Shown: positions 1 through 11,239 of the stretch, one piece after another
Layout of the letters: every line of letters starts with the position of its first letter
How positions within the stretch are numbered: the stretch's first letter is position 1
Source of the DNA: Herbinix hemicellulosilytica
Lineage (GTDB): Bacteria > Bacillota > Clostridia > Lachnospirales > Lachnospiraceae
Assembly (NCBI RefSeq): GCF_002904165.1
Contig: NZ_CVTD020000008.1
Coordinates: 124,001 to 188,000, forward strand
DNA length: 64,000 nt
Direction of reading: 5' to 3'
Made by a program: the position numbers and the translations under genes
Notes under the pieces: model-generated
Seen by the model: only the letters and a program-made list of their open reading frames with translations
What the model was told of the DNA's origin: nothing
Database searches by the model: none

Positions 1-1103
1 AACCTCTGGATAACGTGGCTGCGGCAGTGAAAAAAGGCACGACTGTTAAAGTTGATAAATCGGCCGTTTCTGCTTATAAGAAAATTCTCGGAAGCAAGGC
101 ATCGGTTGTCGAGGCTAAGAAAATAGTAAAAACAAAAGATATTAAGGTAAATAAAGAAGAATTGAAACTTTCTACTTATAATACAGCCACATTAACCGGT
201 ACACTTTCAAAAGGTTCAAATGAAACGATTTATTGGCTTTCTGCAAATCCCGATATTTTGGAGGTGTCCTCAAAAGGGGTTATAACACCAAAGAAAGCAG
301 GTACCACTTATGTGGTTGCATATACCAGAACCTCGGGAAGACATAAAGCGGTGAAAGTTACAGTTACGGAAGCAATTTTTGATGACGGAATTTTTACTTA
401 CAGAATTACCGATCCGTCAAAAAAGACAGTGACTTTATGTGAAATCCGCCCGGATAAGTCTCTCAAAACTTTGACCATTCCCGAAACGGTTACTTATAAA
501 AAAGTAAAATACACTGTAACGTCAGTTATAGCCAATCCGGATGATCCTGCTGTTCCGTTAATACCCGAAAAGTATAGCAACAATAAGATAAAAACGATTA
601 TATTCCCCAAATCTATAACGGGAAAGGTCGGATACCTGGGAGTTTTAAAAAATATAGAGAGTATAACGTTTAAGGGGACTAAGGCTCCCGAAGCCATATG
701 CAACTGGTATGAAGACGGTGGGCTTTTGGCATGGCAGGCTGTAATTTACGTTCCAAAAAAATGTGTAAGTGCATATACATCCGCCCTGTGGTTAAGGGCC
801 TATGATACTTACCAGCAGAATCATTACGGCTGCATCATGGATTTTAATGTGGTTGAGACAGGTAACGATCAGGTAAAGCGTTTTGTGGCAGACGGAATAC
901 TGTACCATGTGACTAAATACGCAAGCAAAAAGAATAGCGGAGAAGTAATAGTAAAGGGAGCAGATGTCAACCTAAAGAAAATTGTAATAAAGAATACGGT
1001 TAAGTACAAAGGATATACCTATAAAGTTACCGCAATTTCAAGAGGAGCTATAGATTACAAAGGAAAAGAAGTGTATATTGATAAGTCTGTAAAGAGGAAC
1101 TGA
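1..1103 (+). CDS. Cell-surface protein with BIG2 and BspA-like repeats, 5'-truncated by window edge
   Basis: The reading frame is open through the left edge of the window, so this is the C-terminal part (about 366 residues) of a larger protein; the GTG at 15 is only the first possible start codon and is probably internal. About residues 50-120 form a bacterial Ig-like group 2 (BIG2) fold, with the typical pattern of a substitute 'W.S.NPDILEVSSKGVITPKKAG' strand order. The rest holds two segments that start with the BspA/LRR_5 type pattern (Y-x-I/V followed by a short strand and a 'KYKGYTYKVTAI' like stretch near the end). Such proteins are exported, wall-associated adhesins in Clostridia. No sorting signal, dockerin or SLH domain is seen at the C-terminus. 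The signal peptide would lie outside the window. Confidence 0.75.
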   Translation, partial: PLDNVAAAVKKGTTVKVDKSAVSAYKKILGSKASVVEAKKIVKTKDIKVNKEELKLSTYNTATLTGTLSKGSNETIYWLSANPDILEVSSKGVITPKKAGTTYVVAYTRTSGRHKAVKVTVTEAIFDDGIFTYRITDPSKKTVTLCEIRPDKSLKTLTIPETVTYKKVKYTVTSVIANPDDPAVPLIPEKYSNNKIKTIIFPKSITGKVGYLGVLKNIESITFKGTKAPEAICNWYEDGGLLAWQAVIYVPKKCVSAYTSALWLRAYDTYQQNHYGCIMDFNVVETGNDQVKRFVADGILYHVTKYASKKNSGEVIVKGADVNLKKIVIKNTVKYKGYTYKVTAISRGAIDYKGKEVYIDKSVKRN

Positions 1104-1556: not shown

Positions 1557-2936
1557 ATGGAAAATGATAAAGCAAAACTTTTTGAAGAATTAAGGACCAA
1601 ATATCCGAAATTCATATATAAAGGCTATACATATGCCATTGGTGAATCTTCTTTAGATATAGATTTTAACTTTGAAATACCCGGGCTTTCACAATTTAAT
1701 CCAAGGTGGTCGATTAAAAAGAGTGAAAGTAAGATTACAGACCCTAAAGATCTTGAACTTCTGATTTTTAATCTGGGAATGGTAGAGCTGATAAGTTATT
1801 GGAAATTAACGTGTTCACCTAAGATTATAATAAATTGTGGATATCTTTCTTCTGAACAGATTAAATGGTGGAAAAAACTATTTATAAAAGGACTAGGTGA
1901 ATTTTTTTATACTAACGGAATTTCATTTAATTATGATATGTTTGAGTTCCGGTGTGACAATTCGCAAAATAACATAAACTTTATAAAAAATCCTGTAGCT
2001 GTTGCAGACAATTCAAACCCCAAGGTGCTTATTCCTGTCGGCGGTGGTAAAGATTCTGCGGTTACAATAAACCTTTTAGAAAATAAAGCTGACAGATACG
2101 GTTATGTTATAAATCCGAGAAAAGCCTGTATAGATACTTTAAATGCTTCGTCTATTCCCGAAGATAAATACATTTTTGTTCACAGAACACTTGATCCGAA
2201 TATGTTAAGACTTAATGCCGAGGGATTTTTAAACGGTCATACTCCTTTTTCGGCAATGGTTGCATTTTCGGCGGTTTTGACTGCATTTTTAAACGATATA
2301 CCTTATGTGGCTCTTTCAAATGAATCCAGCGCCAATGAAGCGACGGTTTTGGGATCAGACGTAAACCATCAATATTCCAAAAGTTTTGAGTTTGAGGCAG
2401 ACTTTGTAAATTATGAAAAAGAATATATAAAGTCCGGTGTTCATTATTTCAGCTTGCTTAGGCCGTTTGCCGAGGTAAAAATTGCAGAGTTCTTTTCAAA
2501 GTATAAGGAATATCATGAGATTTTTAGAAGCTGCAATGCAGGCAGCAAATTGGATATTTGGTGCAATAAATGTGCAAAATGCCTGTTTGTTTATATAATT
2601 CTTTCACCTTTTCTGGATGAGAGCGGGATGCTTAAAATATTCGGTGAGAATTTATTAGATAAAGATGAACTTAAACCCATATTTGATAAATTGATCGGTA
2701 TTATGCCCGAAAAACCTTTTGAGTGTGTAGGAAGCTACAATGAGGTGAATGCTGCATTACAGGAGCTTTTACGCCAATATGAAAAAAATGGCATGTCATT
2801 ACCGGTACTGCTTGAATATTACAGGAAACTTCCAGGCATTCCGAAATATAATTTACAAGACTATTGCGACAGCTTTGACAACGATAATTTAATTCCTGAT
2901 TATTTTCTAAATCTACTTAAAGATATGGGGAAATGA
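1557..2936 (+). CDS. murL: MurL-like UDP-MurNAc-L-Ala-L-Glu epimerase (PP-loop ATP-dependent enzyme)
   Basis: 459 residues. MurL is known from Xanthomonas to epimerise the terminal L-Glu of UDP-MurNAc-L-Ala-L-Glu to D-Glu using ATP, so that D-Glu enters peptidoglycan without glutamate racemase. Seen here: a PP-loop-like nucleotide motif PVGGGKDSA at residues 160-168, which fits an adenylating enzyme, and a cysteine set Cys326, Cys336, Cys339, Cys342 (C-x9-C-x2-C-x2-C), like the metal site of QueC-type PP-loop proteins. The gene overlaps the next gene, a MurD-family ligase, by ATGA, exactly the partnership known for MurL and MurD2. ATG at 1557 follows a weak GGTGG site. The identification rests on remembered family features plus context; another PP-loop ATPase acting with MurD is the alternative. 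Confidence 0.75.
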   Translation: MENDKAKLFEELRTKYPKFIYKGYTYAIGESSLDIDFNFEIPGLSQFNPRWSIKKSESKITDPKDLELLIFNLGMVELISYWKLTCSPKIIINCGYLSSEQIKWWKKLFIKGLGEFFYTNGISFNYDMFEFRCDNSQNNINFIKNPVAVADNSNPKVLIPVGGGKDSAVTINLLENKADRYGYVINPRKACIDTLNASSIPEDKYIFVHRTLDPNMLRLNAEGFLNGHTPFSAMVAFSAVLTAFLNDIPYVALSNESSANEATVLGSDVNHQYSKSFEFEADFVNYEKEYIKSGVHYFSLLRPFAEVKIAEFFSKYKEYHEIFRSCNAGSKLDIWCNKCAKCLFVYIILSPFLDESGMLKIFGENLLDKDELKPIFDKLIGIMPEKPFECVGSYNEVNAALQELLRQYEKNGMSLPVLLEYYRKLPGIPKYNLQDYCDSFDNDNLIPDYFLNLLKDMGK

Positions 2937-4228
2937 CAATGATAGAACTATTAACCGATATTGTTAAAAATAAAAATGTACTGATTCTTGGTTTTGGCAA
3001 AGAGGGCCAATCTACATATAATTTATTAAACAAGCTTAATGTCTGTAAAAGACTTGATATTTCGGACATAAAAATGCCGGACTACAAATTCAGTTCAGAA
3101 ACAATGGTTTATACGGGAGATACTTACCTTGACTGTCTGGATTCATATGATTTAGTTTTTAAAAGCCCCGGTGTAGTTTTACCGAAAGACATTCATGAAT
3201 ATAAATGCAGAATTACATCCCAAACCGAAGTTTTTCTTGCAGCTTACAGAAGGCAGGTAATCGGAATAACCGGAACTAAAGGCAAAAGTACCGTATCAAC
3301 CCTGTTGTATCATGTTTTATCAAACAGCAATGTAAAATGCATTCTTGCCGGAAATATCGGAACTCCGGTATTTGATGTTATAGATAATATAGATAAAGAT
3401 ACGGTAATAGTTCTTGAGCTTTCCTGCCATCAGCTTGAGTATTGCAATTATTCACCGGCTATAGCCGTATTGTTAAACATTTATGAGGACCATCTTGATC
3501 ATTATAAAAGCTTTGAAGCATACAAAAAAGCCAAAAAGAATATATTCCTTCATCAACATGCATCTGATACATTATATTGTGGCGAGGAAGTTATATTGGA
3601 TAATGACGAAGCTATATCCCGGGTATTTTATATAAATGCCGACATATTACCTTTCAAATCATTTGAAAGTATAGGAGACGTAAAATTAAAAGGGGTACAT
3701 AACTTAAAAAACTGTGCCTTCGTTTATGCAATAAGCAAGAACTTCGGAGTATCGGATGATGGTTTTATTTCTTTGCTGCAGACATATAAACCTCTTAGAC
3801 ACCGCCTGGAATATATAGGCACTAAACACGGGGTGGAATATTACGACGATTCCATATCCACAACCGTTGAATCCACAATAAATGCAATTAAGAGTATAGA
3901 AAATGTAGAAACAATAATTCTTGGCGGAATGGACAGGGGAATAGATTATACCAATCTGATCCGGTTTTTGCTTAACAGTAAAATAAAAAATATTCTTCTT
4001 ATATATGAATCCGGGAAGCGGATTTATGAGCTTTTTAAGCAGGAAACAGATTTACATAATAAAAAAATAATTTACTGTTCCGATTTGGAACGGGCTATAA
4101 AAATGGCCCAGGATGTAACATCCAAAGGAACTGCCTGCCTGCTTTCTCCGGCATCGGCAAGCTACGGGCATTTTAAGAATTTTGAAGAAAGAGGAGATGC
4201 ATTTAAGCATTTACTTTTTGATTACTAA
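2933..4228 (+). CDS. murD2: MurD-family UDP-MurNAc-L-alanine--glutamate ligase, probably MurD2 (L-Glu)
   Basis: 431 residues, cytoplasmic Mur ligase of the MurC-F superfamily. It couples ATP hydrolysis to addition of glutamate to UDP-MurNAc-L-Ala. Visible: an N-terminal Rossmann segment (LILGFGKEGQST, residues about 16-27), the ATP loop GTKGKST at residues 114-120, the EDHLDHY block with metal-binding histidines, and the C-terminal SPASASYGHFKNFEERG signature that is typical of MurD rather than MurC/E/F. Its start overlaps the stop of the MurL-like gene (ATGA), so translation is coupled; a second ATG at 2939 is equally possible. Context points to the L-Glu-using MurD2 type, but sequence alone cannot separate MurD2 from D-Glu-using MurD here. 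Whether a standard murD exists elsewhere in the genome is unknown. Confidence 0.8.
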   Translation: MTMIELLTDIVKNKNVLILGFGKEGQSTYNLLNKLNVCKRLDISDIKMPDYKFSSETMVYTGDTYLDCLDSYDLVFKSPGVVLPKDIHEYKCRITSQTEVFLAAYRRQVIGITGTKGKSTVSTLLYHVLSNSNVKCILAGNIGTPVFDVIDNIDKDTVIVLELSCHQLEYCNYSPAIAVLLNIYEDHLDHYKSFEAYKKAKKNIFLHQHASDTLYCGEEVILDNDEAISRVFYINADILPFKSFESIGDVKLKGVHNLKNCAFVYAISKNFGVSDDGFISLLQTYKPLRHRLEYIGTKHGVEYYDDSISTTVESTINAIKSIENVETIILGGMDRGIDYTNLIRFLLNSKIKNILLIYESGKRIYELFKQETDLHNKKIIYCSDLERAIKMAQDVTSKGTACLLSPASASYGHFKNFEERGDAFKHLLFDY

Positions 4229-4276
4229 GTTTGATATTAGAGCAATAAAATTATATAGGAAGTATATGCAGATTGA

Positions 4277-4314
4277 TTTTACCCGAAGATCTTGATTGAT
4301 TTTTCGGGTAAATA
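4277..4314 (+). terminator. Terminator of the murL-murD2 operon
   Basis: The arms TTTACCCGAA and TTCGGGTAAA pair perfectly around a 15-nt loop and are followed by an AT-rich tail. The hairpin begins about 50 bp after the murD2 stop codon. Confidence 0.7.
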
Positions 4315-4373
4315 TTTTATATTCTTAATAGCAAATATATCGCCTTTAGAAATAAAAAATGGAGGAGCATATT

Positions 4374-4534
4374 GTGAATAAGAAAAGCCGAACTATGTTT
4401 ATTGTGGTGAGTGTGGAGTAAAATATGACGAATCAAATATCTCTAACATTAAAAATAAGTTTTGCACCAATTGCGGGAAAGAATTACATACAAATGATAA
4501 GTTTTGCACGAATTGCGAAAGTAAGGTTGAGTAA
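4374..4534 (+). pseudogene. Frameshifted zinc-ribbon mini-protein
   Basis: A GGAGGAG ribosome site at 4361-4367 stands 6 nt before a GTG at 4374, but that frame stops after 15 codons. The +1 frame from 4382 on reads EKPNYVYCGECGVKYDES and then FCTNCGKELHTNDKFCTNC up to TAA at 4532, i.e. three CxxC knuckles typical of double zinc-ribbon proteins. No start codon exists in that frame after the TAA at 4379. One extra base near 4380 would restore a protein of about 53 residues starting at 4374. I therefore read it as a small zinc-ribbon gene broken by a single-base change (or a sequencing error). Function of the intact protein is unknown. Confidence 0.6.
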
Positions 4535-4607
4535 ATTTTTTAGTCTTATGTTCATGGATTTGTGTAAGGAAAATTTATGTTATTAATTGCAACATATTTA
4601 GTAATAT

Positions 4608-4692
4608 GGCCATTGAGAGTATCTGTTCTTATATTTAGGATAAACGATTCGTAGGTTATGAATTTAACGGATACTGCCAATGGCCTATTTTT
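4608..4692. terminator. Large inverted repeat, probable terminator between convergent genes
   Basis: The 20-nt arms 4608-4627 and 4666-4685 match at 17 of 20 positions when paired (GGCCATTG...CAATGGCC at the base) and are followed by ATTTTTATTTT. It lies between plus-strand and minus-strand genes, so it could serve one or both. The remaining part of the gap to 4807 shows no gene. Confidence 0.5.
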
Positions 4693-4807
4693 ATTTTAAT
4701 ATATGTACCTGCTATAAAAGCATATAGTAGATCTAACTGATTATATGCTAAAAACCGTATTTTCTTAAAAAATAGGTATCAGTTTCAATATTTTATGCCA
4801 GTGCAAG

Positions 4808-5677
4808 TTATAAATATCCTCTGAAGCCACGTCCGATAATTTCGCTGGTATTGGTTATCAGGATAAAAGCGTCGGGATGGTTCTTTTTAATGTAATGTTG
4901 GAGCTGTACGGCCTGAGAACGGGTCATTACCGTCAAAATGATTTTCTTTTTATGATCCGTAAATGCTCCTTTGGCATCATATACGGTAGCGCTTCTGTTT
5001 AAGCTCTTTATAATGAAGCTGCAGATATCGTCTGCATCATCGCATATGACGGTAAAATATTTGCACAGGTTTAAAGCTTCAACAATATTATCGACTACAA
5101 TGGATTTGATAATAAGTCCCGCCAAGGAAAGTAAACCTGTCAGCATACCGAAAATAGGAAATGTCAAAAGAGTAAGTATAAAATCTGTAGCAAGCAAGGC
5201 TTGTCCAATATTTACATTTGTTTTCTTCTTTAATATCATTGCAATGATATCGGTACCGCCTGTTGAACTACCAAGGTTAAAAAGGATGGCTGCACCGACT
5301 CCGGGAAGGACAACAGCAAAGAATAATTCTATAACAGGTTCATTTGTAAAAGGGCGGTCCATTGGGCTAATTATTTCCAAAAGTTTAAGTCCAACAGAAA
5401 GAATAAAGCTTCCGTATGCAGTCTTTACTCCAAAATCCCTGCCAAATACAATATAGCCTAAGACTAGGAGAATTGTATTAATAATAAGTACAATAGTTCC
5501 TGATGATATCTTGCCGCCTAAAATACTGCTAAGTAAAATTCCTGCTCCGGTTATCCCTCCAATGCTGAAATTGTTCGGAAACTTGAAATAGTGTACGCCA
5601 ACAGTTACCATTAAGGCGCCGATTGTGATTAAAAAATATTCTTTAAGAATATCTGTTTTTTTATTTTGCTCTTTCAT
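4808..5677 (-). CDS. YitT family membrane protein (DUF161 + DUF2179)
   Basis: 289 residues. About five to six hydrophobic segments occupy residues 13-200, including the conserved small-residue stretch SIGGITGAGILL after the first segment and LGSSTGGTDIIA in the middle, both marks of the YitT/DUF161 family. The last 80 residues are a soluble DUF2179 domain (VMTRSQAVQLQHYIKK ... EIIGRGFRGYL). Members are inner-membrane proteins of unproven function, sometimes annotated as transporters. The ATG at 5677 is preceded on the minus strand by an CCGGAGA-like site. It is transcribed toward the inverted repeat at 4608-4692 and may be in one unit with the PAP2 gene upstream, 108 bp away. Confidence 0.85.
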   Translation of the reverse strand: MKEQNKKTDILKEYFLITIGALMVTVGVHYFKFPNNFSIGGITGAGILLSSILGGKISSGTIVLIINTILLVLGYIVFGRDFGVKTAYGSFILSVGLKLLEIISPMDRPFTNEPVIELFFAVVLPGVGAAILFNLGSSTGGTDIIAMILKKKTNVNIGQALLATDFILTLLTFPIFGMLTGLLSLAGLIIKSIVVDNIVEALNLCKYFTVICDDADDICSFIIKSLNRSATVYDAKGAFTDHKKKIILTVMTRSQAVQLQHYIKKNHPDAFILITNTSEIIGRGFRGYL

Positions 5678-5785: not shown

Positions 5786-6625
5786 TTATTTATGCCTATC
5801 TAACAGTAAGTTGTAATAAAAATAAATACATGCCAGTGTGACAAAAAATCCTGCGACAACGTCACTGGTAAAATGGGCACCAAGTACCACTCTTGAAACG
5901 GCCACAAGGCTGCCCCATATTACAGCAAGGAAAAAGAAAACTCTGCCTTTATATTTTTTTTGAGATGGTACAAAAACATTATAGGAAAGTATAGTAAAAG
6001 CATTGGCGGTATGGCCGGAAGGAAATGATTTAAACTCCTGACCTAAAGCAGGACCTGAAATTTCGTACCAGTAGCGAAATTCGTCAAATCCGGAAATGCT
6101 TCGCATCCTCGGTCTTCCCCATATATATTTCATTATGCTTACAAAAAGAATTTCTGTAAGAATGACCAGGATTAAGAATATTGCGTGTTGCCTGTATTTT
6201 TTTAGTGTTTTTTCATATTTAGGAGTAACGGTTGTTATAATTATGCCAATAACCAAAGCTATACCTGCAGTATTTAATCTGAAATTATTTATTGATGCCG
6301 AATTATCATATATGTAACGTAGGGGTATTATTAAAATCAGGTAAGTACACAATGATGAAAGAATGAATTCAAATATTAAGTAAATACAACGCAAAAGCTT
6401 ATTCGTTTTATTATGTACGGATAGCAATATTACGGTGCCGATAAGTAATCCCCAAAAGGCAGGCTGTTCTCCAAAAATGTAAAAGAACTTTGCCCATATT
6501 GATTCTTGGTTTAATAAAAGAAGTGACAGGTTGTAATCTATCTTCCCAAAGGCCAGGATTAAAAGAGAAATTGTGGTAAGAATAAAACTTCCTAATGTAA
6601 ATCTTTTAAGTAAGTTCTTATCCAT
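5786..6625 (-). CDS. PAP2 superfamily membrane phosphatase
   Basis: 279 residues with about six membrane segments. The three phosphatase blocks of the PAP2/acid-phosphatase family are present: K-x-x-x-x-RPR (KYIWGRPR, slightly shorter than the usual first motif), FPSGHTANAF and SRVVLGAHFTSDV. Relatives dephosphorylate lipid phosphates such as phosphatidate, PGP or undecaprenyl pyrophosphate on the outer face of the membrane; which substrate applies here cannot be told. A lipid-carrier role would suit the murL-murD2 genes nearby, but they are on the opposite strand and the link is only speculative. Start ATG at 6625; the gene precedes the yitT-like gene on the same strand. Confidence 0.85.
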   Translation of the reverse strand: MDKNLLKRFTLGSFILTTISLLILAFGKIDYNLSLLLLNQESIWAKFFYIFGEQPAFWGLLIGTVILLSVHNKTNKLLRCIYLIFEFILSSLCTYLILIIPLRYIYDNSASINNFRLNTAGIALVIGIIITTVTPKYEKTLKKYRQHAIFLILVILTEILFVSIMKYIWGRPRMRSISGFDEFRYWYEISGPALGQEFKSFPSGHTANAFTILSYNVFVPSQKKYKGRVFFFLAVIWGSLVAVSRVVLGAHFTSDVVAGFFVTLACIYFYYNLLLDRHK

Positions 6626-6985
6626 TAAAAACGCTCCATTTCATATATGGCGAAATTACTGCTGAATCATTTTATGCGGATTTTATATATGGGATTATTA
6701 AAATTTTAGTCATTTGCCTGTTTTATCTTCTAAGCTATTCTTTCTCCTGTTAGATTTCTTAACTCCCTGTCCTGAAAATTAGTAAAATTTTTGATTTTGA
6801 AAACAATTCTTAGTTTTTTAGATTTAAACTTTAGGTTCGATATTAAAAATAAACAATATGCAAAATAAAAGATATATTTTTTGCATATACAGAAAAATCA
6901 AAATAAAGATATCCTGTCTTTTTGTATAAAAAGAATAATATAATACTGTTGCTTATAAGCCATGACAGTATTTTACATAAATAAG
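6626..6985. other. Non-coding gap before the serpin cluster
   Basis: Divergent intergenic region with no gene of its own. It holds a hairpin AATACTGT (6942-6949) / ACAGTATT (6965-6972) just upstream of the serpin promoter, which could be an operator or part of a short transcript. Otherwise the DNA is AT-rich without recognisable signals. Confidence 0.4.
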
Positions 6986-7014
6986 TTTACATAATTTGCT
7001 ATTTATGTTATAAT
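6986..7014 (+). promoter_or_regulatory. Sigma-A type promoter for the first serpin gene
   Basis: TTTACA at 6986-6991, a 17-nt spacer, and a consensus TATAAT at 7009-7014. It sits about 85 bp before the GTG start of the serpin gene on the same strand. Confidence 0.7.
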
Positions 7015-7099
7015 ATGTAAAAACATAATTTTGAAAAGAATACACCTATTGTATGAATTGGGTTCTTAATTTTTTTTTATAGAGAGGAGAAACATATCA

Positions 7100-8521
7100 G
7101 TGAAAAAGCTTTTAAATCGTTATTCAATGTTTTATATTTTGGTATTAGCCTGTATATGCTGCTCTTCATGTTCAGTTAAAAAGGAACATGATTTGATAAA
7201 TGACCAAAATTATAAGGTGGAGCAGGAGAAGGAGCAAGTAATTCCTCAGGAGGATTTATCGGATAAAAATATACAAGATAACTCAGAAAACACTTCTGAT
7301 ATTAAAACCAAGATCGAGGAGGATGACTTGCCTGCCGAAAATTATGGAAATAAAAATAATCTAAGTAAGGACTTTTTACAAAATTTTTATGATTTTACAG
7401 AGCAAACCTTTGCACATATTATCAGGGACAATGAAGGAAAAAATCAAATCTATGCGCCCTTTAACTTTTATCTGTCCTTATCTATGCTTAATGAATTATC
7501 TGAGGGAGAAGCAAGGGAAGAGATACAAAAGGCTTTAAATATATCTGATGCTAAAAATAATGCATCAGAGTTGAATACCGCACTTTCCTCCCTGCAGGAG
7601 AGGAGATTATTTCCCATAGGCAGACTCAATATAAATACTTCGCTGTGGTTAAGTGACGAAATAAACTATAAGGATAATTTACTAAATATGCTCCAAAGCC
7701 AATATAATACTGAAATATTTAAGGGTGATTTAAAAGATAGGGAATTTCAAAATTTAATGACAAAATGGGTGTATGAGAATACCAATTTTGAATTTCAACC
7801 TGACTATCAATCTGACTATCATAAATCTTTTGATCAGTTAGATCAACATACATTTATTTCTTTAAGTACCCTTGATTTTTATGATGAGTGGCTGAATCCA
7901 TTCAATGAAGAGGATACAAAGCCAGATACCTTTTTTATAAGTGATAATGAGAAGATTACCTGTGATTTTATGAATATGGAAGCTTGGTCTCATCCATTTA
8001 TGGTTGGTGAAGACTACATATCAACCATATTTATATTAAAGGGAGGAGCCGAATATATGCTATTTATCCTTCCGAAGGAAGTTTTGTCAGTGGATGAATT
8101 AGTAGAAGAAAAAGGGAAATTAGCTGAAATCATATATAATTGGACTGATGGGCAAGTTTCCGATGGGAAGATTTCCGTAGGGAAGGTAAAATTAAGCATT
8201 CCTAAGTTTGCCTATGAGGATGAAATCGACCTGAGAAAAACAGCAGAAAAAATGGGAATTAGAAAAATATTCGATATAAATTCAAAAGCATTTTCTTTAT
8301 TTGCAGATGAGGATACATATATAACTGATATCCGGCAGGTGTCAAAAATTGAAATTAATGAAAAGGGATGTTCCGCATCCTCATATACTGAGATAGCAGC
8401 AGTGGGTGCAGTAGCATCGAAGGATGAAGCAGAAGTAATTTTAAACAGGCCATTTATTTATATATTATATAAAGATAAAATTCCATTTTTGGCAGGAGTT
8501 GTAAGAAACCCTATTGGATGA
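7100..8521 (+). CDS. Serpin-family lipoprotein, copy 1
   Basis: 473 residues. Serpins are suicide protease inhibitors; this one would be anchored outside the cell by a lipid, given the signal peptide ending in CCSSC (Cys24). Residues 25-80 are a charged, low-complexity linker. The serpin fold starts near FYDFTEQTFAHI and shows APFNFYLSLSMLNEL, a central TLDFYDEWLNPFNEEDT region, the hinge EINEKGCSASSY, a reactive loop AAVGAVASKDEAEV at about residues 429-446, and the closing NRPFIYILYKDKIPFLAGVVRNP. The hinge keeps the Glu-x-Gly pattern of inhibitory serpins. GTG at 7100 follows AGAGAGGAG. A close paralogue lies at 9821-11239 with a protease gene between them, so self-protection from that protease is plausible. 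Confidence 0.88.
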   Translation: MKKLLNRYSMFYILVLACICCSSCSVKKEHDLINDQNYKVEQEKEQVIPQEDLSDKNIQDNSENTSDIKTKIEEDDLPAENYGNKNNLSKDFLQNFYDFTEQTFAHIIRDNEGKNQIYAPFNFYLSLSMLNELSEGEAREEIQKALNISDAKNNASELNTALSSLQERRLFPIGRLNINTSLWLSDEINYKDNLLNMLQSQYNTEIFKGDLKDREFQNLMTKWVYENTNFEFQPDYQSDYHKSFDQLDQHTFISLSTLDFYDEWLNPFNEEDTKPDTFFISDNEKITCDFMNMEAWSHPFMVGEDYISTIFILKGGAEYMLFILPKEVLSVDELVEEKGKLAEIIYNWTDGQVSDGKISVGKVKLSIPKFAYEDEIDLRKTAEKMGIRKIFDINSKAFSLFADEDTYITDIRQVSKIEINEKGCSASSYTEIAAVGAVASKDEAEVILNRPFIYILYKDKIPFLAGVVRNPIG

Positions 8522-8674: not shown

Positions 8675-9750
8675 ATGAAGAAAGCAAAAATACTTACAGC
8701 TGTTATTTTAACCGTATGTATTATAAGTTCTAATTTTTTATCAGTGTATGCAAATGAAAAAAGCAATTATATTAATCAAGTTAATTATCTGGCTTTGAAT
8801 TCACCCCAAAATTTCCGACAACATCAAATTGGATAAATAACAAAATTATAAATTTGGTTCCATTATATGATGTGAATGATTCTTTATATGCTTATTGTGT
8901 TGATATTGTTAATGAAGATACTGGAAACTACGCTTATATGATAATACTTGCTATAACAGATAAGCCTCAGATACTTGAATTCCATCCTAATGGGAGTTCT
9001 CCTTATATGAATATTGCTGATAAAAAAGCTTATTATGCTGGTTTATCAAAGTATTATATTAAAGAAACTGATAGTATGTTACAGGATTTAACAACCGGTA
9101 ATAAAATCAATAAGAAAGATATTAGTGTAATTATTAGCAAAGAAAATTCTCATCTATCTTATAATGCAATAGGTGGGAACAGCAATATAAAAGGGGTTAA
9201 TGCAATAGGAGGGTATAGCAATATAGATGCAGTGCCAGATTATAAATCTGAAAAAGGATGTGCGCCAACAAGTTTAGCAATGCTAATAAAATACACCTAT
9301 GGCAATTTAGTTGATAGCCAAACTACTTTAATAGATAGATTAGCTTATGAATTCGATTCATTACCTGGAAGTGGTGCTACACCTGTGGCATATATTAAAC
9401 CGGGGGTAATCCGCTATTTATCTTCTAAAGGCATTACGCCTACCTTTTGTAGATTTATATCTGAGAATTATTTTGGAGACCCTATTTATGGTATGACTTA
9501 TAATTCATTAGAAACATACCAAACTTATATTAATGCAAAAATTCCGGTAGTAGTTATAATGTTTGGTGCCAAGGGAACATCACCTGCCTTTCCTAGTGGA
9601 TTTAATGATCATGCAGTTTGTGGTACGGGTTATTATGTAGGTTCAGCTGGGGAGTTTATTATTGTACATACTACAGCACAAGAAGGGGATGTTTATGTGG
9701 CCTATTCAGAGTATGCCTTAGGCCAATTTGCTTGGTTTACAGTATACTAA
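8675..9750 (+). pseudogene. Secreted C39/papain-like cysteine protease gene interrupted by a frameshift
   Basis: ATG at 8675 follows AAAGGGGAC and encodes a signal peptide (MKKAKILTAVILT, then a cut after SVYA). The frame ends at 8836, but the next frame carries the continuation without a gap: around 8805-8815 (CCCCAAAATTTCC) the reading shifts by one base, and the second frame reads FPTTSNWINNKIINLVPLYD and on to 9750. The mature domain has a catalytic Cys block GCAPTSLAM and a His block NDHAVCGTGYY, as in C39-like/papain-fold peptidases; the segment before it (about 150 residues) resembles an inhibitory propeptide. Two repeats, NAIGGNSNI and NAIGGYSNI, precede the catalytic part. It is either a one-base mutation in a run of identical bases, a sequencing error, or phase-variable. 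Confidence 0.65.
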
Positions 9751-9779
9751 CTATTATAATAAAAATATATTATTTAATA

Positions 9780-9801
9780 ATTCAGCCCTTAACTTTTTTA
9801 A
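9780..9801. repeat. Right arm of the 22-nt inverted repeat
   Basis: Exact reverse complement of 8607-8628. It ends immediately before the AGAGAGGAG ribosome site of the second serpin gene, so in a transcript the two arms could pair and hold the protease message as a loop. Confidence 0.85.
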
Positions 9802-9820
9802 AGAGAGGAGCTTTAAATCA

Positions 9821-11239
9821 GTGAAAAAGCTTATAAAGAGTTATTCAATATTTTATATTCTGATATTAGTCTGTATAGTTTTCTCATCATGTTCCGTTAA
9901 AAAGGAACATGATTTGATAAATGACCAAAATTATAAGGTGGAGCATGAGAAGGAGCAAGTAATTCCTCAGGAGGATTTATCGGATAAAAATTTACAAGAT
10001 AACTCAGAAAACACTTCTGATATTAAAACCAAGATCGAGGAGGATGACTTGCCTGCCGATAATTATAGAAATAAAAAAAATATAAGTAAAGACTTTTTAA
10101 AAAATTTTTATGATTTTACAGAGCAAACCTTTGCACATATTATCAGGGACAATAAAGGGAAAAATCAAATCTATGCGCCCTTTAACTTTTATTTGTCCTT
10201 ATCTATACTTAATGAATTATCTGAGGAAGATGCAAGGGAAGAGATTCAAAATGCTTTAAATATATCAGATGCTAAAGATCATGCATCAGATTTGAATACC
10301 GCACTTTCCTCCCTGCAGGAGAGAAAATTTCCCATAGAATTATCCATAGACAGACACAATATAAATACTTCGTTGTGGTTAAGTGACAAAATAAACTATC
10401 AGGATAATTTATTAAATATGCTCCAAAGTCAATATAATACTGAAATATTTAGGGGTGATTTAAAAGATAGGGAATTTCAAAATTTAATGGCAAAATGGGT
10501 GTATGAAAATACCAATTTTGAATTTCAACCGGACTATCATAAATCTCTCGATCAGATAGATCCATATGCATTTATTTCTTTAAGTACCCTTGATTTTTAT
10601 GATGAGTGGCTAAATCCGTTCAATGAAGAGGATACAAGACCAGATACCTTTTTTATAAGTGATAATGAGAAGATTACCTGTGATTTTATGAATATGGAAG
10701 AACGGGATCATCCATTTATGGTTGGTGAAGACTTTATTTCAACCGTATGTGTTCTAAAGGGTCATGAATCTATGCTATTTATCCTTCCGGAGGAAGGTTT
10801 GTCAGTGGATGATTTTATAGGAGAAAAAGGGAAATTATCTGAAATCATATATGGCTGGACTGATGAGGAAGCTCCTGTTAAAAAGGTTTCCGCTGGTAAA
10901 GTAAAATTAAGCGTTCCTAAGTTTGCCTATGAGAATGAAATTGATCTGAAAGAAACAGCAGAAAAAATGGGAATTAAAAAAATATTCGATAAAAATTCAA
11001 GAGCATTTTCTTCATTTGCAGATGAGGATATATATTTAACTGACATCTCTCAGGCGTCAAAAATTGAAATTAATGAAAAGGGATGTTCGGCATCCTCATA
11101 TACAGAGATATTTGCATTTGGCTCATCAGGACCAAAAGATGATGAGGCAGAAATAATTTTAAACAGGCCATTCATTTATATAATATATAAAAATAAAGTT
11201 CCATTTTTGGCAGGGGTTGTAAGAAACCCTATTGGTTGA
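9821..11239 (+). CDS. Serpin-family lipoprotein, copy 2
   Basis: 472 residues from GTG at 9821, chosen because AGAGAGGAG lies 10 nt upstream and the start matches copy 1; a longer frame back to 9728 has no such site. The first 90 residues and most of the body are nearly identical to copy 1, including the lipobox Cys24, the acidic linker and the hinge EINEKGCSASSY. The reactive loop differs: FAFGSSGPKDDEAEI instead of AAVGAVASKDEAEV, with one extra residue, so the target protease is probably different. An insert PIELSIDRHNI in the mid-region is also changed. The gene lies 70 bp after the protease gene and is likely in the same transcript or driven by read-through. Recent tandem duplication followed by loop divergence is the simplest reading. 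Confidence 0.88.
   Translation: MKKLIKSYSIFYILILVCIVFSSCSVKKEHDLINDQNYKVEHEKEQVIPQEDLSDKNLQDNSENTSDIKTKIEEDDLPADNYRNKKNISKDFLKNFYDFTEQTFAHIIRDNKGKNQIYAPFNFYLSLSILNELSEEDAREEIQNALNISDAKDHASDLNTALSSLQERKFPIELSIDRHNINTSLWLSDKINYQDNLLNMLQSQYNTEIFRGDLKDREFQNLMAKWVYENTNFEFQPDYHKSLDQIDPYAFISLSTLDFYDEWLNPFNEEDTRPDTFFISDNEKITCDFMNMEERDHPFMVGEDFISTVCVLKGHESMLFILPEEGLSVDDFIGEKGKLSEIIYGWTDEEAPVKKVSAGKVKLSVPKFAYENEIDLKETAEKMGIKKIFDKNSRAFSSFADEDIYLTDISQASKIEINEKGCSASSYTEIFAFGSSGPKDDEAEIILNRPFIYIIYKNKVPFLAGVVRNPIG

Follow-up and report, generated by a model that had tools for sequence, protein, structure and literature searches.

A pair of overlapping genes in the window, the 64,000-nucleotide stretch of DNA analysed here, is predicted to make the D-glutamate (D-Glu) of peptidoglycan without free D-Glu, standing in for a lost murI in a genome that has kept its canonical murD. 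The probability of this reading is put at about 85%. Its observed part consists of the homology of the two proteins, the layout of their genes, their conserved residues, the absence of MurI and of a D-amino-acid transaminase (Dat) over the respective cut-offs, the synteny at the site of the loss, and the distribution of MurL and MurI among related genomes. Nearly all bacterial cell walls contain D-Glu, and MurI is commonly regarded as essential and as a target for drugs.

A MurL and MurD2-type gene pair

The first gene, ORF1, encodes the MurL relative and occupies positions 1557-2936 of the plus strand (ATG start, 459 aa). It is followed on the same strand by ORF2, the gene of the MurD2-type ligase, at 2933-4228 (ATG start, 431 aa), and the two share a four-base ATGA start/stop overlap at 2933-2936. 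ORF1 matches the NCBIfam MurL model NF041275 with 238.8 bits (E 8e-71), residues 73-407 of the protein corresponding to positions 64-396 of the 447 in the profile. ORF2 matches the murD model TIGR01087 with 307.5 bits (E 1.7e-91), over the cut-off of 211.95 bits. These family matches are beyond chance and, on sequence grounds, ORF1 and ORF2 are confirmed as a real MurL and MurD2-type pair. The first-pass annotation, which had named the MurL and MurD families and read the genes as a MurL-MurD2 pair, is supported and largely holds. The features that it had described in ORF1, the PP-loop motif GGGKDS (residues 162-167; 2040-2057, plus strand, coordinates computed from the ORF start) and the four-cysteine site C326-x9-C336-x2-C339-x2-C342 (2532-2582, plus strand), were recovered, as was the ATGA overlap.

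The match of ORF1 to NF041275 lies below the curated cut-off of 700 bits, which counts against the main reading; this cut-off was reached by none of the 397 sampled genomes of the host family. Because of its score, ORF1 is not filed in that narrow Xanthomonadales equivalog and is placed in the wider MurL family. In Pfam its sole match is DUF6395, weak and below the cut-off, and the DUF6395 model matches 35 of 37 ORF1 relatives at E up to 0.1. The GC contents of ORF1 and ORF2 (33.9 and 34.9%) are not unusual for the window (37.0%, sd 4.0, in 1.3-kb steps) and give no sign of transfer. A known defence protein was rejected as a reading, as PADLOC returned no match.

Elsewhere in the window, positions 15-1103 (plus strand) hold the tail of a 740-aa BspA-type leucine-rich repeat (LRR_5) protein that starts before the window. 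Positions 7100-8521 and 9728-11239, both on the plus strand, encode serpin-family proteins that resemble each other (PF00079, E 3.7e-48 and 1e-49), and the gene of a Peptidase_C39-like protein lies between them at 8854-9750, forming an inhibitor/protease-like cluster.

Conserved residues of the MurL relative

Two alignments of MurL proteins were compared. In the first (A1), which comprised 22 rows including one Xanthomonas and one Pseudonocardia protein, the four cysteines, the GGG-x-DS motif and a KPFECVG motif with a fifth cysteine are invariant in every row. In the second (A3), with 37 rows and without the Xanthomonas and Pseudonocardia rows, the five cysteines and GGGKDS are again invariant, and the E and V of KPFECVG are nearly so. 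The rows nearest to ORF1 come from loci L101 and L102.

The four-cysteine site is probably a metal site. It had been proposed as a possible mark of a variant enzyme, an idea that does not stand: since both this site and the PP-loop are shared with Xanthomonas MurL, and the cysteines with Pseudonocardia MurL as well, they are traits of the family and not of a variant. The spacing of the cysteines in ORF1 recalls QueC. The Pfam QueC model matched two of the 37 ORF1 relatives, with a best E of 0.049, and did not match the window protein. The QueC-like site noticed in the first-pass annotation is a general feature of MurL.

A search of solved structures with ORF1 gave no match at E up to 1. A profile built from the 37 relatives matches TtuA (PH0300), a PP-loop enzyme, over the P-loop segment (E 9.7e-5) and has no match to it beyond the P-loop. 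When checked, ORF1 was found to belong with MurL and not with a different PP-loop family.

A MurL relative on a plasmid of Pseudonocardia alni (L036, 3839-5239) carries GGGRDS in place of GGGKDS. No ligase is annotated within 4 kb of it in the plasmid gene table, which is incomplete. This protein perhaps acts on another substrate.

Specificity of the ligase

Published mutants point to a few positions that set the stereospecificity of these ligases. As described in the accessible text, E197D or R358K alone alters the stereospecificity of Xanthomonas oryzae MurD2 and both together switch it to D-Glu, while K319T lets Escherichia coli MurD accept L-Glu (PMC8788868). To obtain the E. coli numbering used here (D182, K319, K348), solved MurD chains of E. 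coli were aligned with the X. sacchari ligase, whose E and R are 161 residues apart, the same distance as between E197 and R358 of X. oryzae. A set of 104 MurD2-type ligases was examined, consisting of ORF2, the X. sacchari protein, 25 from family loci, 73 from database loci and four from genomes G640, G644, G660 and G750. Isoleucine at the position of K319 together with arginine at that of K348 occurs in 104/104 of these, and lysine occupies both positions in 9/9 canonical MurDs.

ORF2 has I308 at the position of K319 and R335 at that of K348 (R358 in X. oryzae), as in MurD2. At the position of E. coli D182 (E197 in X. oryzae), however, it has D186, the canonical residue, which counts against the main reading. 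Glutamate is found there in 88 of the 104 MurD2-type ligases and aspartate in the other 16, ORF2 included. Because of D186, ORF2 is called MurD2-type and not MurD2 proper. With two of the three published specificity positions matching MurD2, ORF2 is likely to be specific for L-Glu. Like canonical MurD, ORF2 exceeds the cut-off of the family model TIGR01087, and it is 30% identical to the canonical MurD of its own genome; it differs by isoleucine for K319, arginine for K348 and lysine for asparagine in the P-loop.

The canonical residue at position 182 also suits an alternative of low probability, in which ORF2 is a dual-specificity or ordinary MurD, D-Glu is supplied by an aspartate- or cysteate-type (asp_race/CuyB-like) racemase or by DapF, and MurL rescues mis-ligated L-Glu. 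The I/R pattern, present without exception in the 104 MurD2-type ligases, argues against it.

In a quick tree of 61 rows, the MurD2-type ligases are separated from canonical MurD with a support of 100. ORF2 pairs with the ligase of L102 (support 99), and the canonical MurD of the window genome pairs with that of the same-genus genome G649 (support 100). The X. sacchari ligase forms a long branch (3.2), and its placement was flagged by a warning.

Loss of murI in the window genome

The window genome (G000; 3.04 Mb in 35 contigs, completeness 100, contamination 0.84) has no MurI over the cut-off. MurC, MurE and Ddl are present over their cut-offs, together with a MurF-like protein below its own. 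A canonical MurD of 431 bits is encoded between genes read as mraY and ftsW, in what is read as the dcw cluster. The first-pass annotation had advised looking for a second murD, and this copy answers to it. It had also offered the pair as a second route beside murI, which is not borne out: with no MurI over the cut-off and no recognisable D-amino-acid transaminase, the pair is the only recognisable D-Glu route in this genome.

Other sources of D-Glu were considered. A murI elsewhere in the genome was rejected, because the MurI search gave no match over the cut-off and the single Asp_Glu_race protein exceeds the cut-offs of TIGR00035 and of the cysteate racemase CuyB while scoring far below that of MurI. 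The presence of this aspartate/cysteate-type racemase counts against the main reading, and it could provide D-Glu to a dual-specificity or ordinary MurD, as could DapF, for which a glutamate racemase side activity is known in Chlamydia (PMC5885031, from the part of the source available). However, racemase cross-matches of the same type also occur in genomes with MurI, for example G649, G412, G450 and G530, and are therefore no marker of MurI loss. No Dat over the cut-off was found in the window genome; its lone Aminotran_4 protein was considered as a D-amino-acid transaminase and rejected, being a branched-chain transaminase.

A comparison with G649 seems to locate the loss. There, a MurI of 268.5 bits is encoded between genes read as a DUF1934 protein and spoIIR. 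In the matching stretch of the window genome, which has ten collinear ORF pairs with that of G649, the DUF1934 gene and spoIIR adjoin with 152 bp between them, and tblastn of the G649 MurI against this stretch found nothing better than E 0.55. Synteny thus suggests a clean loss of murI, and these two genomes of one genus, side by side, show how an essential step was exchanged, one gene at a time.

The canonical MurD of the window genome (L002, G000:C16:4867-6195, minus strand) is 66% identical to that of G649, and MraY and FtsW are 91 and 85% identical. Its rate ratio between the two genomes, 3.46, is the highest among 35 pairs. This resembled decay of the window-genome copy, but the end branches are nearly equal (0.25 in the window genome and 0.21 in G649, which has MurI), so the ratio is no evidence of decay on its side. 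MurD has changed fast in this genus. A canonical MurD that is kept, on a branch not longer than that of its MurI-containing sister, speaks for the alternative in which the ligase uses D-Glu made by another enzyme.

Distribution of MurL and MurI

MurL was found in 27 of the 397 sampled family genomes, representing 26 of 334 genera, and in none of 14 named control genomes. MurI was scored in the 27 MurL-containing genomes and in 47 family genomes without MurL, namely G649, ten fairly complete listed genomes, and every tenth genome from G420 to G780 except G550, which has MurL. It was over the cut-off in none of the former (0/27) and in 43 of the latter, one of which, in a 60%-complete genome, has an internal stop in MurI. 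Among the 38 controls of at least 90% completeness, 35 have MurI over the cut-off; the controls without it are G640, G660, G680 and G750. The Fisher value for MurL against MurI in the family is 2.7e-16, which overstates the independence of the evidence because the genomes are related.

A database scan revealed at least 571 encoded MurL relatives, from which the best 80 were taken further. The taxa in their titles are Lachnospiraceae, Pseudobutyrivibrio, Ruminococcus flavefaciens, Mordavella, Oscillospiraceae, Erysipelotrichales and Bacteroidales, the last being metagenome-derived and open to binning errors. MurI was over the cut-off in none of 50 further MurL-containing genomes drawn from these best 80 (completeness not given), a set that may share species with the 27. 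In a sample of the phylum, only the window genome had a match to NF041275 (1/398), a number that may be too low, the sample having been scored with the Xanthomonadales model; relatives were later found in other orders and in Bacteroidales. The distributions of MurL and MurI are near-exclusive. The absence of MurI wherever MurL was found, in both sets, also speaks against a MurL that merely rescues mis-ligated L-Glu.

The pairing of the two genes is widespread. A MurD2-type gene lies next to MurL on the same strand in 24 of 26 other family loci, with gaps of -125 to +249. In one of the remaining two it is 2.7 kb away; in the other (G644) there is none in the stretch and one on another contig. 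Among the best 80 of at least 571 database relatives, 73 loci have a MurD2-type gene within the stretch, and the other seven have an intact MurL, in some cases with the stretch ending soon after it. At L173 (1524-4226, on a single 4.4-kb contig), MurL and then the MurD2-type ligase form one open frame of 900 aa, which could be a true gene fusion or could stem from an indel introduced by assembly where the two genes overlap.

Canonical MurD and departures from the pattern

MurD was scored in 36 genomes, among the matches listed, down to E of about 1e-10. Among these matches, 23 of the 27 MurL-containing genomes have a MurD2-type ligase and no canonical MurD over the cut-off. The other four, the window genome, G689, G516 and G508, have a canonical MurD, which counts against the main reading; in G508 it is split into two parts, together scoring 395 bits, and contains an insert. 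Their canonical MurD would fit a different role for the pair, the synthesis of some other compound containing L-Glu or D-Glu, with the wall using salvaged D-Glu through canonical MurD. The probability of this is very low: where no MurD other than the MurD2-type ligase is among the matches listed, that ligase must serve the wall, and the neighbours of the pair in the window (genes of the LRR_5 protein, a YitT-family protein and a PAP2 protein) form no biosynthetic cluster.

Canonical MurD was found in five MurI-containing controls and in G680; G640, G660 and G750 have only a MurD2-type ligase among the matches listed. The finding of such a ligase in these three genomes, where no MurL was found, counts against the main reading. 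Dat was over the cut-off in none of 31 genomes scored, with a cut-off (277 bits) that is strict and was passed in only 1 of the 14 named control genomes. Four genomes, G644, G689, G660 and G680, encode Dat-like proteins that stay below that cut-off, at 203-212 bits. In G644 and G689, which have MurL, MurL need not be the only D-Glu route, given these proteins (206-212 bits); those of G660 and G680, which lack MurI over the cut-off, may explain their supply of D-Glu.

Three genomes stand apart. G750 is 99% complete and encodes a MurD2-type ligase (L095, G750:C15:563259-576371, at 5974-7179, minus strand); it has no MurL, no MurI over the cut-off and no Dat-like protein. In G640 (80% complete), with its MurD2-type ligase, no MurL and no MurI over the cut-off were found. 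In G483, given as 100% complete, an intact MurD2-type ORF stands behind a MurL remnant (L204, G483:C6:106390-116932, at 3331-4866 and 4896-5636, minus strand), a 246-aa N-terminal part without GGGKDS or the four cysteines, which likewise counts against the main reading. A tentative and unlikely, though not negligible, account is that these genomes rely on another epimerase that is yet to be described, or on a MurD2 that has reverted to D-Glu, so that there would be several end points of murI replacement with the window genome as an intermediate.

Proposed mechanism

The two reactions and the formation of AMP have been published for other species. In the accessible portions of those papers, MurD2 adds L-Glu, which MurL then inverts, using ATP and Mg, in one direction only and with formation of AMP; an adenylate has been proposed as the intermediate (PMC8788868, PMC5808125). 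By analogy, ORF2 and ORF1 would perform the same reactions as MurD2 and MurL. ORF2 would attach L-Glu first, and ORF1 would flip it to D-Glu afterwards. The PP-loop domain, which fits the conversion of ATP to AMP, would adenylate the alpha-carboxylate, as hypothesised in the published work and inferred here for ORF1. Inversion may then proceed through an enol or oxazolone, a suggestion made here. C390, H228, H271 or K275, all invariant in both alignments, are candidate acid/base groups.

Significance and comparison with known systems

According to the accessible text of the sources, MurL has been reported in Gamma- and Alphaproteobacteria and actinobacteria, and relatives of low similarity in cyanobacteria, a fungus and an amoeba (PMC8788868, PMC5808125). 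No description of MurL from Bacillota or Bacteroidota turned up in a search of the open literature, although the original 2017 paper and closed papers may say more. From the sequences and the reviews as far as accessible, this is apparently a known pathway in new and large territory, namely Clostridia, Erysipelotrichales and metagenome-derived Bacteroidales, which the reviews do not name. Roseburia intestinalis genomes appeared to lack murI, and the MurL pair would be a testable answer to this lack, left open in the part of the report available (PMC7478625). Should the pair function as predicted, D-Glu would be made by another route in a set of gut and rumen Clostridia, and perhaps in Bacteroidales, and these bacteria would be indifferent to MurI inhibitors. 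In addition, the TIGR01087 rule would name their MurD2-type ligases ordinary D-Glu ligases.

The closest known system is the MurL-MurD2 pair known from X. oryzae, with assayed orthologs in Micromonospora and Salinispora (PMC8788868, PMC5808125, from their accessible text). The layout that the first-pass annotation had likened to that of Xanthomonas is indeed present in the annotated plasmid murL and murD of X. sacchari, which have the same order and a short overlap of 20 bases. The Xanthomonas proteins share the PP-loop, the four cysteines and KPFECVG of the window pair, as well as isoleucine and arginine at E. coli positions 319 and 348, and the likeness to X. oryzae extends to the window genome having no MurI or Dat over the cut-off. 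In contrast, identity to the X. sacchari proteins is only 32% for MurL (over 338 aa) and 23% for MurD2, and Xanthomonas MurD2 has glutamate at E. coli position 182 where ORF2 has aspartate. The host here is a Bacillota-type genome, and the canonical MurD kept beside the pair is, within this comparison, known for the window genome alone.
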